A DNA stretch of 64,000 nt, taken from NCBI RefSeq assembly GCF_005155025.1, contig NZ_CP039731.1:1364001-1428000 (forward strand). Reading direction: 5' to 3'. Shown in pieces: positions 25,213 to 38,856 of this stretch; position 1 is the stretch's first letter; each line of letters begins with the position of its first letter. The translations under genes and the position numbers were made by a program. Under the pieces are notes generated by a model. The model saw only the letters and a list, made by a program, of their open reading frames with translations, did not search any database and was not told the origin of the DNA. The DNA comes from Aquitalea aquatilis (GTDB lineage Bacteria; Pseudomonadota; Gammaproteobacteria; Burkholderiales; Chromobacteriaceae).

Positions 25213-26592
25213 ATGGACTTTGCTGATCGTCACATCGCGGTAGTGGGGCTGGGAGGCTCGGGGCTGGCTGCCGCGCGCTATCTGGCTGCCCACGGCGCAC
25301 GCGTGGTGGTGGCCGATAGCAAGCCCGCGCCGGAGCGCGTGGCCCAGCTGCTGCAAGATGTGCCGACGGCGGAATTGCGTAGCGGCGCGTTTGATGCCAG
25401 CACCTTTGCCGGCGTCGACATGCTGGTGCTCAGCCCCGGCGTACCGCTGAAAGCCCCTGCCATTGATGCTTTCCGCCGTGCCGGTGGCGAAGTGGTGGGT
25501 GATGTGGAGCTGCTGGCCCGCGCCATCAAGGGTCATGGCAGCAAGGTCATCGCCATCACCGGCTCCAATGGCAAGACCACCGTCACCAGTCTGGTTGGCC
25601 ATCTATGCCAGCAGGCTGGGCTGGATACCATCGTGGCCGGCAATATCGGCTTGGCGGTACTGGAAGCCCTGCTGGAGCGCGAACAGTCCGGCAAGCAGCC
25701 GGACGTGTGGGTGCTGGAGCTGTCCAGCTTCCAGCTGGAAACCACTTACAGCCTCGCGGCGGATGCTGCCACGGTGCTGAATATTTCCGAAGACCATCTG
25801 GATCGCTACCACGACCTGCTGGATTACGCCCACGCCAAGACCGCCGTGTTCAATGGTCTGGGGGTGCAGGTGCTCAACCGCGACGACATCCTGGCCCCGG
25901 CCATGGTGCGCCCCGGTCATGTGGTGAAGTGGTTCTCGCTCAAGCAGCCGGTGGAATACAGCCTGCTGCAGCAACAGGGCGAATACTGGCTGAGCGCGCA
26001 GGGCGAGGCCGTGCTGCCGCAAGCCAGTCTGCAACTGCAAGGCCTGCACAATGCCGCCAATGCACTGGCCTCGCTGGCCTTGTGCGACAGCATCGGGCTG
26101 GACCGTACCGCCCTGCTGCAAGGCCTGCAAAGCTTCCAGGGCCTGGCACATCGCGTGGAACTGGTAGATGAATTTGACGGCATCGCCTGGATTGATGATT
26201 CCAAAGGCACCAATGTCGGTGCTACCGAAGCCGCCCTCAATGGCATGACGCGCCGTGTGGTGCTGATTGCCGGTGGTGACGGCAAGGGCCAGGATTTCAG
26301 CCCGCTGTTGCCGGCCTGCCAGCGCATTGCCCGCGCCGTGCTGCTGATCGGCCGCGACGCCGCTCGTATCCGCGCCGCACTGGCGGATAGCGGTGTGCCG
26401 CTGCAGGATTGCGCCACGCTGGAAGACGCCACCCGCGCTGCGGCCGCACTGGCTCAGCCGGGTGATGTGGTGTTGCTGTCGCCGGCCTGTGCCAGCCTGG
26501 ATATGTTCCGCAACTATGCCCATCGCGCTCAGGTATTCATCGATACCGTGGCGGAAATCAAGGCCGCTGCGGTCGGAAAGGGGCAGCCATGA
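25213..26592 (+). CDS. murD: UDP-MurNAc-L-Ala:D-Glu ligase MurD
   Basis: A 459-residue Mur ligase that adds D-glutamate. It has an N-terminal nucleotide-binding start ([15 protein letters not shown]), the ATP loop [24 protein letters not shown] and [15 protein letters not shown], all typical of MurD. It follows mraY by 12 bases and overlaps ftsW by ATGA. Confidence 0.96.
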
Positions 26593-27746
26593 TCGTGCAC
26601 TCGGCGCGCCGCTATACCGCCATCAAACCTTTTGACGAGGCACTGGCCTGGGCCCTGGCCCTGCTGTTGTCCATCAGCCTGGTGATGGTGTACTCCGCGT
26701 CGATTGCCTATGCCGAAGCCGATGCCGCCACGCAGAACCGCTACTTCTACCTGATCCGCCACGTCATCTTCATGGTGATTGGTCTCAGCGCTTCTTACAT
26801 CCTGTTTCAGGTACCCACCCGTATCTGGCAGAAATACGCCGGCAAGCTGTTCCTGCTGGGCATCGTGCTGCTGGTATTGGTGCTGGTCCCCGGCATCGGC
26901 CGGGTGGTGAATGGTTCGCGCCGCTGGATCAACCTGTTCGTGCTCAATCTGCAGCCGTCGGAAATCATGAAGTTTGCCACGGTGATCTATGCCGCCGATT
27001 ACACCGTGCGCAAGACCCACAAGCTGCACAGCCTGAAAGAAGGCTTTGCGCCGATGTTCGCCGCCATGGTGGCGGTGGCCTTCCTGTTGCTGCGCGAGCC
27101 GGACTTCGGCGCGCTGATGGTGGTGATGTCCATCGCCATGGGCGTGCTGTTCCTGGGCGGCATCAATATGCGCATCTTCTCCGGGCTGGCGGTGATGGCG
27201 GCAGTGGCCATCGTGCTGCTGATCATTTCCTCGCCGTATCGCCTGAAGCGGGTGCTGGGTTTCATGGACCCGTGGGACGACCCCTATGGCAAGGGCTACC
27301 AGCTGTCGCATTCGCTGATCGCCATTGGCCGGGGCGAGTGGTATGGCGTGGGGCTGGGTTCCAGCATTGAAAAGCTGTTCTACCTGCCCGAGGCCCATAC
27401 CGACTTCATCATGGCGGTGATTTCGGAAGAATTCGGCTTTGCCGGCATCTGCGTGGTGATCGGCCTGTATGCCTGGATCGTGCGCCGTGCGTTTCACATC
27501 GGCGTGGAATCGAAAAAGCTGGAGCGCTTCTTCCAGGCGCTGGTGGCGCAGGGGCTGGGCATCTGGCTGGGCATTCAGGTGTTTTTCAACATCGGCGTGA
27601 ACATGGGTCTGCTGCCCACCAAGGGCCTGACCCTGCCGCTGATGTCGTTTGGTGGTTCGGCCATGTTGATGAATCTGGTGGCGATGGCCGTGCTGCTGCG
27701 GGTTGACTATGAAAACCGCCGCATCATGCGCGGCTACAAAGTGTAG
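26589..27746 (+). CDS. ftsW: Septal peptidoglycan glycosyltransferase FtsW
   Basis: A 385-residue SEDS membrane protein that polymerises lipid II at the septum with FtsI. Motifs include [30 protein letters not shown] and the C-terminal [15 protein letters not shown]. The chain ends RRIMRGYKV with TAG. The codons for IMRGYKV are repeated 227 bases further on immediately before murG, with a tandem hairpin repeat in between (see repeat entries). Confidence 0.95.
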
Positions 27747-27944
27747 CCGCGCAGGACCAGCGCCGACAGGCGCGTAAGGGCGCAAGCCCGGTTGTGGCGG
27801 TTTCTGCGAGGCCGCAGGACGAAGCTAAAACCGGAGCGAAGGGCGGCTACAAAGTGTAGGCGCGCAGGACAAGCGCCGACAGGCGCGTGAGGGCGCAAGC
27901 CCGGTGGCGGCGGTTTCTGCGAGGCCGCAGGACGAAGCTAAAAC
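27731..27944. repeat. Tandem 113-bp hairpin-rich repeat between ftsW and murG
   Basis: Two units start at 27731 and 27844 (period 113). They are nearly identical through the first 101 bases. Each begins with the last codons of ftsW (GYKV and a stop) and then has three small stem-loops in a row: GCGCC-GACA-GGCGC (27760-27773; 27873-27886), GGGC-GCAA-GCCC (27778-27789; 27891-27902) and CTGCG-AGGC-CGCAG (27804-27817; 27917-27930). Each closes with GACGAAGCTAAAAC. Differences include GTTGTGG against GTGGCGG ahead of the third hairpin. It looks like a REP/BIME-type or other structured element and carries no open reading frame of note. Confidence 0.85.
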
Positions 27945-27946
27945 AG

Positions 27947-27973
27947 CGCATCATGCGCGGTTACAAGGTTTGA
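27947..27973 (+). repeat. Second copy of the ftsW 3' end, abutting murG
   Basis: These 27 bases encode RIMRGYKV and a TGA stop, the same ending as the real ftsW tail at 27720-27746, with only wobble-type differences (GGT/GGC, AAG/AAA, GTT/GTG). It is not in frame with ftsW now. Its TGA overlaps the murG ATG as TGATG, the arrangement expected of an ancestral ftsW-murG junction. Confidence 0.8.
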
Positions 27974-29067
27974 TGAAGATGACGAACAGAACGGTCATGG
28001 TAATGGCAGCCGGTACGGGTGGACACATTGTCCCCGGCCTTGCCGTGGCCAAAGAGCTGCAACAGCGCGGCTGGAAAGTGGTGTGGCTGGGTACCGAGCG
28101 TGGCATGGAAAACAAGCTGGTGCCGCCCACCGGTATTCCGTTGGAGCGGCTGGCTTTTCATGGTGTGCGCGGCAAGGGTCTGCTGGGTTCGCTTAAGGGC
28201 GTGTTGCAGCTGTGCGCGGCTTTTGTGCGTGCGGCGCAGCTGTTGTTCCGCCATCGTCCGGATGTGGTGCTGGGCATGGGCGGCTATGTCTGCCTGCCGG
28301 GTGGGGTGATGAGCGGCCTGCTGTGGAAGCCGCTGGTACTGGTGAATGCCGATGCCAGCCTGTTGCTGAGCAACAAGGCCTTGCTGCCGTTTGCCCGCAA
28401 GCTGGTGTGCGGCTTTGACGGCAGTGCCGCCAGAAGCGTGGCCAAGTCGCTGGTCACCGGCAATCCGGTACGGCGTGAAATCGAAGCCCTGCCGGCACCG
28501 GCACAACGCTATGCCGGCCGTAGCGGTCCGCTGCGGGTACTGGTGGTGGGTGGCAGCCTGGGCGCGCGGGTACTGAACCAGACCCTGCCGCAAGCACTGG
28601 CGCTGCTGCCGCAAGCACAGCGCCCACAGCTGACCCACCAGACGGGTGAGGCCAATTTTGCCGAGGTACAGGCGGCGTATCAGGCTGCCGGCCTGGGCAA
28701 GGATGTGACGCTGCTGCCGTTTATCGATGACATGCCCAGCCGGCTGGCCGAGTGCGACCTGATCATCTGCCGCGCCGGTGCCATCACGGTGAGCGAGCTG
28801 TGTGCCGCTGGTGTCGCCAGCATTCTGGTGCCGCTGGTGGTGTCCACCACCGCGCATCAGCGCGACAACGCCAGCTGGATGGCGACGGAAGGCGCGGCGA
28901 TTCATCTGCCGCAAAGCGAATTGACAGCACAAAAGCTGGCAGACGTTCTGGCTGGTCTTGACCGGCCCCGTCTGCTGGAACTTGCCAGCCATGCCCATGC
29001 CTTGGCCAGACCGGGCGCAGCCGCCCGGGTGGCCGATCTGTGTGTGGCACTGGCAGACGAACAGTAA
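27973..29067 (+). CDS. murG: UDP-GlcNAc:lipid I N-acetylglucosamine transferase MurG
   Basis: A 364-residue GT-B fold glycosyltransferase that converts lipid I to lipid II on the inner face of the membrane. It shows the N-terminal glycine-rich loop MAAGTGGHIVPGLAVA, GMGGYVCLPG, a second G loop VVGGSLGARVLN and the donor-site ICRAGAITVSELCAAG. I chose the ATG at 27973 (MKMTNRTVMV) because it sits in a TGATG with the duplicated ftsW tail and has AAGG just upstream; ATG 27979 is also possible. An in-frame extension back into the repeat is not credible. Confidence 0.95.
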   Translation: MKMTNRTVMVMAAGTGGHIVPGLAVAKELQQRGWKVVWLGTERGMENKLVPPTGIPLERLAFHGVRGKGLLGSLKGVLQLCAAFVRAAQLLFRHRPDVVLGMGGYVCLPGGVMSGLLWKPLVLVNADASLLLSNKALLPFARKLVCGFDGSAARSVAKSLVTGNPVRREIEALPAPAQRYAGRSGPLRVLVVGGSLGARVLNQTLPQALALLPQAQRPQLTHQTGEANFAEVQAAYQAAGLGKDVTLLPFIDDMPSRLAECDLIICRAGAITVSELCAAGVASILVPLVVSTTAHQRDNASWMATEGAAIHLPQSELTAQKLADVLAGLDRPRLLELASHAHALARPGAAARVADLCVALADEQ

Positions 29068-38076: not shown

Positions 38077-38856
38077 TCAAAGCTTGGCCGGGTGTTGTAC
38101 CTGCCCCGGCCGGATGGTGTAACGGCGGCGGCCGGCTTCGCGGCCGGCCAGCCCCCAGGAAAGTTCGGACAAGCTTACATCACCCCGTGCCGATACGTTG
38201 AGCAGCATGGAAGAACGGGTGCCGTAGTCGCGTCCCTGAATGAACACGGGCGACAGGGTTTTTTCCAGCGCCAAGCCAACCCCGGTATTGGGCAACTGTC
38301 CCGGGCCGGCCTGGGTGGCATCGGCCAGCCAGGCAAAGGCTTCCGCCTCACTGGGTGGACGGCGCAGGCCGCGCAGCTGTTCGGCCAGCCGTTCGCTCTT
38401 GAACCAGGGGGTATCCAGCGTGGCATTGGACAGGGTGTGTACCCCGGGCGTGACACGGGCGATGCGTGCGCCACGGCTGTGGAAGTGGAACAGGTCATCC
38501 ACCTTGCCATACAGCAGATTGAACGGTGCGTAGTGCTGATGGTTGTCGCGCAGCCAGTCGGCAAAGCTGAAGGGGTCGTCCTCGCCGGTGACGAAACGCT
38601 GCACCAGCTCGCCACGCGAACGCGCGCCGCTTTTGCCGTAGCCTTCGCGGAAATTGGTCAGCGCGGCAAAGCGGCCCCGGCCATCCACCATCAGCCAGCT
38701 GCCGCCCGCCTGCAGGTCGCGGCCGCCCAGGGTGTCGGCATGGCCTTCCCACCAGTCCAGCGTCGCACTGGGGCGGGCGTAGTATTCGTCGCGGTTGGCC
38801 AGCAAAACCAGCTGGCCCAGGCCGGGCATCTTGTAGGCAAAGGCAATCACGCACAT
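38077..38856 (-). CDS. NRDE/TANGO2-family protein
   Basis: A 259-residue protein opening with MCVIAFAYK and carrying the family-naming LLANRDEYY motif near residue 19. GGRDLQAGGSWLMVDGRGRFAALTN is also diagnostic of this superfamily. The Cys2 and fold resemble Ntn-hydrolases; the human relative TANGO2 is linked to heme or lipid handling, but the bacterial role is not established. It is followed by the CNP1-like gene. Confidence 0.88.
   Translation of the reverse strand: MCVIAFAYKMPGLGQLVLLANRDEYYARPSATLDWWEGHADTLGGRDLQAGGSWLMVDGRGRFAALTNFREGYGKSGARSRGELVQRFVTGEDDPFSFADWLRDNHQHYAPFNLLYGKVDDLFHFHSRGARIARVTPGVHTLSNATLDTPWFKSERLAEQLRGLRRPPSEAEAFAWLADATQAGPGQLPNTGVGLALEKTLSPVFIQGRDYGTRSSMLLNVSARGDVSLSELSWGLAGREAGRRRYTIRPGQVQHPAKL

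Follow-up and report, generated by a model that had tools for sequence, protein, structure and literature searches.

A folded tandem cassette with a duplicated gene end at the ftsW/murG junction of Aquitalea and related Chromobacteriaceae, a probable small insertion element

Small palindromic repeats and the ftsW cassette

Elements derived from IS200/IS605 have hairpin ends, make no target duplication and use a Y1 enzyme. When tRNA-targeting islands and phages integrate, they restore the 3′ end of the gene that they enter, and the original end is displaced. According to PMC3733652, REP/REPIN sequences, which go with RAYT (TnpA-REP), are short non-coding hairpins, tandem or clustered and often beside genes, NEMIS and dRS3 are repeats of Neisseria, and Rickettsia palindromic elements (RPE) are palindromic inserts lying in frame inside open reading frames. 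Correia elements, which like NEMIS and dRS3 are small repeats adjoining genes in Neisseriales, are treated in PMC2649163.

The cassette described here, from the ftsW/murG junction of Aquitalea aquatilis and its relatives, is likewise made of short non-coding hairpins beside genes. By inspection, neither REP/REPIN tag, GTAG or CGTC, stands at the foot of its recurring end hairpin (P4), GTAG being found at the ftsW stop of some cassettes (GTGTAG) and GTTTAG in others, and the cassette differs from REP/REPIN in its duplicated gene end and in the absence of a Y1 transposase from the A. aquatilis genome. Such a transposase (PF01797, E 1e-4) was absent in 13 of the 17 genomes tested, A. aquatilis included (G000, G006, G002, G007, G031, G032, G044, G040, G010, G061, G011, G224 and G344) and present in G060, G063, G053 and G398, so that mobilisation by Y1/RAYT finds no support in A. 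aquatilis. Unlike NEMIS/Correia repeats, the ftsW cassette has, by inspection, no terminal inverted repeats of that kind. MITE terminal inverted repeats are also missing, the inverted repeats at ftsW being hairpins that include the target rather than element ends (MITE-like inverted ends occur at another locus, L301 in G011). A target-site duplication is present, as in MITEs, and its 31 aligned columns at ftsW and 33 and 39 at the phage gene gp36 exceed the usually short duplications of those elements. Some P4 arrays lie in long open frames, as RPE do in their published description; at ftsW, by contrast, the gene end is re-supplied and the insert stays outside the protein. A working gene end next to a displaced original one recalls integrative elements, but a unit of ~113 nt has no space for an integrase, and the duplication, like the lack of Y1 in A. 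aquatilis, departs from IS200/IS605. Because it fails to show at least one tested feature of each of the REP, MITE and IS200 types, we place the cassette among small non-autonomous palindromic repeats, apart from the known types; it resembles a member of a mobile hairpin repeat family about which little is known. In the searchable part of the open-access literature we found no paper on the ftsW cassette or the P4 word, and of four sequence words searched as text there, a single one turned up, in a paper about a shrimp virus vector.

The repeat and its fold

The window analysed is the 64,000-nt stretch at 1,364,001-1,428,000 of a single-contig 4.36-Mb genome. An earlier note on this DNA had described a tandem repeat between ftsW and murG with three hairpins in each unit, and both the placement and the repeat are borne out: two 113-nt units, 95% identical, lie at 27730-27944 (copies 27730-27831 and 27843-27944, period 113), and all three hairpins are found in both. 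The units are strongly folded, a 261-nt region reaching -132 kcal/mol as compared with -109.1 ± 4.3 in 200 dinucleotide shuffles, none of which came as low (z -5.4). The third hairpin, CTGCG-AGGC-CGCAG, is present in each unit, but only as a local variant, many relatives folding TGC-GAG-stem-GAA-GC. Nor is the repeat a free-standing spacer: the start of the folded unit falls within ftsW, at 27711-27713, and the fold takes in the last 12 ftsW codons, with the stop codon TAG (27744-27746) inside the first hairpin. Beyond the array lies a second, displaced ftsW end, which by inspection contains AAGG, a Shine-Dalgarno-like site for murG (Table 1). Judging from the sequence, murG would start at the ATG at 27973 or at 27979, more likely the latter.

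Table 1. Positions of the cassette and its neighbouring genes in the window
Feature	Coordinates	Strand	Remarks
ftsW	26589..27746	+	ends in TAG; FtsW ends read in 58 family genomes
Left (working, recoded) copy of duplicated ftsW end	27712..27746	+	starts AAAAC; forms 5′ arms of P0 and P1
P0 5′ arm, unit 1	27713..27723	+	ftsW codons
P1 hairpin, unit 1	27724..27756	+	last ftsW codons pair with downstream arm; stop codon in 3′ arm
P2 hairpin GCGCC-GACA-GGCGC, unit 1	27760..27773	+	
P3 hairpin GGGC-GCAA-GCCC, unit 1	27778..27789	+	
P0 3′ arm, unit 1	27793..27803	+	pairs with ftsW codons
P4 end module, unit 1	27800..27831	+	GTTTCTGC...GAAGCTAAAAC
Unit 2	27826..27945	+	model R1 match, E 3.7e-14; begins with decayed ftsW-end copy, 27827-27859
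P4 end module, unit 2	27913..27944	+	
Displaced copy of original ftsW end	27940..27973	+	starts AAAAC; its TGA overlaps an ATG (TGATG)
murG	27973..29067	+	listed open frame runs from upstream GTG at 27904

The word GACGAAGCTAAAAC has exactly two perfect occurrences in the window and one more with 2 mismatches (chance mean 0.18). Among the 28 matches to the repeat listed for the whole genome, the two units scored E 1e-40 or better and all others 0.39 or worse; dispersed copies of the cassette or of P4, sought across the A. aquatilis genome, were found at ftsW only, and a match at 4236918 was set aside as chance-like. Rfam returned no match in the whole window at gathering thresholds. A 22-nt tandem repeat of 2.3 copies is found elsewhere in the window, at 38086-38135.

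When 35 units were folded singly, most ftsW-linked ones yielded a common plan of P0, P1, P2, P3 and then P4, in which P0 pairs the codons GAAAACCGNNG with an arm ~80 nt downstream, P1 is a hairpin across the ftsW stop, and P4 is the end hairpin GTTTCTGC-...-GCTAAA. Exceptions with other folds are several of the inner or decayed units, the unit of G012, which is short, and some from Vogesella (G062 and G065, for example); G002 and G004 have a shortened P0. Where units are linked to ftsW, the register of P1 against the stop codon is the same across five genera and is displaced by two in Vogesella. A census of 64 distinct loops counted 14 GNA, 10 GNRA and 6 GNYA.

A conserved structure is upheld by covariation of the paired arms between ftsW codons and the insert. 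Over P0 and P1 in 21 aligned units, 93.7% of 536 cells are paired, as opposed to 83.4% after shuffling and 37-46% in slid registers, and double-change cells number 49 vs 16.9 in shuffles, all of these being counts of sequences and not of events. Pair 9-92, for example, is CG in 11 units, AU in 7, GC in 2 and UA in 1. The changing codons are synonymous (NRR is spelled, among others, AACCGCCGC, AACCGAAGG, AACCGTCGC or AACAGGCGA), and the downstream arms track these changes. The seven Vogesella units, scored apart, are 90.9% paired. A cruder and weaker test of own versus foreign arms gave at least 7 of 8 pairs with the own arm in 25 of 27 units, the exceptions being G065, which scored 6, and G012, which has no arm and scored 0; foreign arms did so in 25% of 588 combinations. 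Alignment A2 was made without the short G012 unit, G066, unit 3 of G060, the Vogesella units (placed in A3) and inner Aquitalea units, and alignment A4 without both G053 units and two inner Aquitalea units.

A cis-acting mRNA element would account for the strong covariation with wobble positions of ftsW and for the single plan of most ftsW-linked units. In such an element a four-way junction (P0-P3) together with P4 in the ftsW-murG transcript would govern its decay, its processing or the translation of murG, and selection would preserve the fold and recode ftsW synonymously. RNA folding is also far from random in five chosen units (z -5.2 to -8.1); DNA folding of the same five, however, is equally marked (z -5.8 to -8.7), so that structure alone does not tell the level of action, and covariation does not separate RNA from folded DNA.

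Filled and empty junctions

We searched 61 genomes of the Chromobacteriaceae, of which 59 had an FtsW match, and read the junction in 58, plus G069. With model R1 the cassette was found at ftsW in 28 of the 61 (E 3e-7 or better). Rows of the model came from 25 of these, whose matches are therefore built in; the remaining three, G066, G069 and G012, contributed none. Across 399 genomes of the order, strong R1 matches were confined to six family members, all of them model rows, and four further genomes matched at E 0.006-0.08 (G020, G224, G380 and G430); the weak match in G020 sits at its ftsW end, and that in G224 led to the P4 arrays described below. Two other weak matches, G067:C19 and G007:C4, are probably due to chance, their frames resembling by eye an ABC transporter and an integrase.

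The earlier note had allowed for a repeat unique to this genome and absent elsewhere in the genus; instead, seven of the nine Aquitalea genomes with a readable junction carry the cassette, A. aquatilis included (a tenth, incomplete genome yielded no junction). Copy number among the nine is 0, 1, 1 plus a truncated one, 2, or 3, in agreement with the tandem duplication suggested earlier; the cassette is missing from A. aquatica and from G009, which has a different short spacer. In P. subflava, 3-4 units form a mixed array. Filled species alternate with non-filled ones, with at least 14 state changes on an ftsW tree of 55 rows, which was built quickly after removal of the last 21 codons and with partial and REP-bearing cases scored as not filled.

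The empty A. aquatica junction shows the ftsW TGA overlapping the murG ATG. In this species and in seven Chromobacterium genomes a constant 53 nt separates the ftsW stop from the MurG glycine motif, which leaves 0-8 nt between the genes; because of the cassette the separation is 391 nt in A. palustris, a close relative of A. aquatica. Other non-filled genera vary from 52 to 187 nt. These empty junctions and the frequent changes of state speak against a cis-acting mRNA element.

Other repeats are also met at this position. After the ftsW end or its copy in C. sinusclupearum (L071/L147), Xenophilus sp. AP218F (L078/L155) and G044 (L077) there is a repeat like GGCGGAAGCCC...GGGCTTCCGCC, indicating that in Chromobacterium-group genomes the same spot accepts another repeat family. 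In cassette-free Craterilacuibacter (L102/L169) the ftsW-murG gap is filled by a 7-nt tandem repeat, (GGGAGTA)n.

The target duplication at ftsW comprises 31 aligned columns from AAA(A/T/G)C, a score that 0 of 500 shuffles reached, and the AAAAC word of ftsW falls in the codons TATGAAAAC. Its right-hand remnant equals the A. aquatica tail at 26/26 in six of the seven filled Aquitalea and at 25/26 in the seventh, as opposed to 20-23/26 for their working tails. Chromobacterium remnants (seven of nine filled genomes, G042 and G044 being omitted from the comparison) are more decayed, at best 19-22/26, and in these seven rows the remnant is nearer to empty tails three times and the working tail three times, with one tie. 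A fresh duplication should give two equal copies, and thus the more changed working copy in Aquitalea counts against one; the gene end could be one that the element itself supplies, or the codons could be selected by pairing.

In nine hand-picked filled-empty pairs, some with a common partner, 3-7 of the last 10 ftsW codons differ, vs means of 1.0-2.0 per 10 elsewhere in the gene; four empty-empty control pairs show 0-2 differences and three filled-filled pairs none, the latter being in line with selection on an mRNA fold. Ranked against the other windows, tail divergence stands out in six Chromobacterium pairs, where 0-5 of 361 windows reach the same level, and less so in G031 (52) and Aquitalea (16 and 27), and the excess is limited to about the last 10-15 codons. 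A Glu codon in this region is GAA in 27/27 filled genomes and GAG in 10/25 empty ones (Fisher p 2e-4 with relatedness ignored and six partial or REP-bearing junctions excluded).

The end hairpin elsewhere and the nature of the element

P4 is present at a second locus in A. aquatica, which is empty at ftsW, and in A. pelogenes, in both cases in a Mu-like prophage at the junction of a FluMu-type gene with gp36 (PF07030). The gp36 start is split there by a P4-bearing module flanked by copies of the gene start, reading on the P4 strand AAAAC-(gene start)-module-GTTTCTGCGAG-CCGC-CC(A/T)-GCGG-CGAAGC-TAAA-(second gene-start copy). The copies begin together at AAA(A/T/G)C and extend over 33 and 39 aligned columns, with 0/500 shuffles reaching the score, the A. 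aquatica duplication beating its shuffles narrowly (38 vs 36). The prophage copies have only a slight folding advantage over simple letter shuffles, of which 3-4 in 200 did as well, and R1 scored the A. aquatica one at E 0.63. We found 449 gp36 loci, kept 80 and inspected 40, among which a single one, L365, is filled; it lies on the same IMG/VR contig as L355, which is perhaps identical with the A. pelogenes prophage (L347). The filled prophages may go back to one insertion event. The close phage loci L361, L363 and L364 are empty, with the overlap CTGATGTACGCC (TGATG), and hence at both gp36 and ftsW/murG the nearest empty relative has a stop-start overlap. Among the P4 matches of this set, L350, L351, L353, L354, L356, L357, L359 and L360, which have one common flanking sequence and no duplication, and likewise L352 and L358, were set aside, leaving only L355 as an element. 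In L362 (~955-1001) the gp36 start of a Mu-like prophage is duplicated in frame without a P4 module, perhaps as a remnant of a lost insertion.

A P4 core pattern, TTTCTGCN{1,24}AAGCNAAAA, was searched in 39 genomes. It matched 59 times in G224, 18 in G398 and 7, 5 and 4 times in another three members of family f44, vs 0-1 in controls and 0 or 1 in the six other f44 genomes (of 11); within Chromobacteriaceae, G053 and G011 have 3 each. Some of the listed matches look chance-like. In f44 the matches stand in tandem arrays with units of ~22, 30, 43 and 102 nt that have AAAAC at their boundaries; several follow a word such as GCCGTCTGAAAAC, which we take to be the neisserial DNA-uptake word and from which f44 would be the Neisseriaceae. 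R2, a model of the part after P1, gave only weak matches in G224 (E 0.011-0.9) and none in G398 and G344. The putative link from the ftsW cassette to the f44 arrays rests on a core of ~17 nt. Some 30-nt P4 arrays (L296 and L297 in G398, L305 in G315) apparently lie within long open frames, as if they were tolerated in-frame repeats. In G011 (L301) the P4 word stands at both inverted ends of a repeat of ~120-150 bp that holds a GCAGACAGTACAAGTAGTACGGCAAGG-like sequence, and in G053 (L299, L300) beside a ~120-150-bp repeat with such a sequence.

We consider that the cassette is probably a small non-autonomous hairpin-forming element inserted at the ftsW/murG junction with duplication of the gene end. 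Such an element would terminate in the P4 hairpin, with the target (31-39 aligned nt from AAA(A/T/G)C) repeated on either side of the module, so that both neighbouring genes would stay whole: ftsW would use the left copy of its own 3′ end, and the murG start context would be kept in the right copy. It may move as folded single-stranded DNA by means of an enzyme supplied in trans, its units may multiply through unequal recombination, and the insert may loosen the original stop-start coupling of ftsW and murG. More tentatively, it could represent a new class of transposable hairpin module in Neisseriales, in which a GTTT arm would pair with the AAAAC word, insertion as folded ssDNA would duplicate ~35 nt of target and allow harmless entry into overlapping junctions of essential genes, and the ftsW target copy would now belong to the fold of the element and be carried as a synonymously recoded gene end.

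The cis-acting mRNA element is in our opinion unlikely, as P4 is also found at gp36, a phage gene with no relation to ftsW, and in dispersed arrays, of which some fall within long open frames. Least probable is plain local tandem duplication with quasi-palindrome template switching at ftsW, neutral and spread by transformation and homologous recombination, which would fit the 0-3 tandem units in Aquitalea, the direct and inverted occurrences of the ftsW end, the decay of inner copies and the mixed array of P. subflava, but leaves unexplained P4 at gp36 with the same start of the duplication and the dispersed core arrays, and does not agree with an excess of divergence confined to the last ~10-15 ftsW codons, unlike that of a long conversion tract. 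Overall, the position and the tandem units reported earlier stand, a conserved structure is supported, and the evidence favours an insertion element over the regulator of the dcw genes then envisaged, since P4 is met again at further loci and in further genomes.

The genes of the dcw operon abut or overlap, and insertions there should usually harm. An insertion element of this kind would have an entry route that spares both genes, used at a single essential chromosomal junction across many species and at a single phage junction. The cassette would also allow a link between synonymous codons and a non-coding partner to be put to the test, and could be where a search for an enzyme moving hairpin DNA begins.
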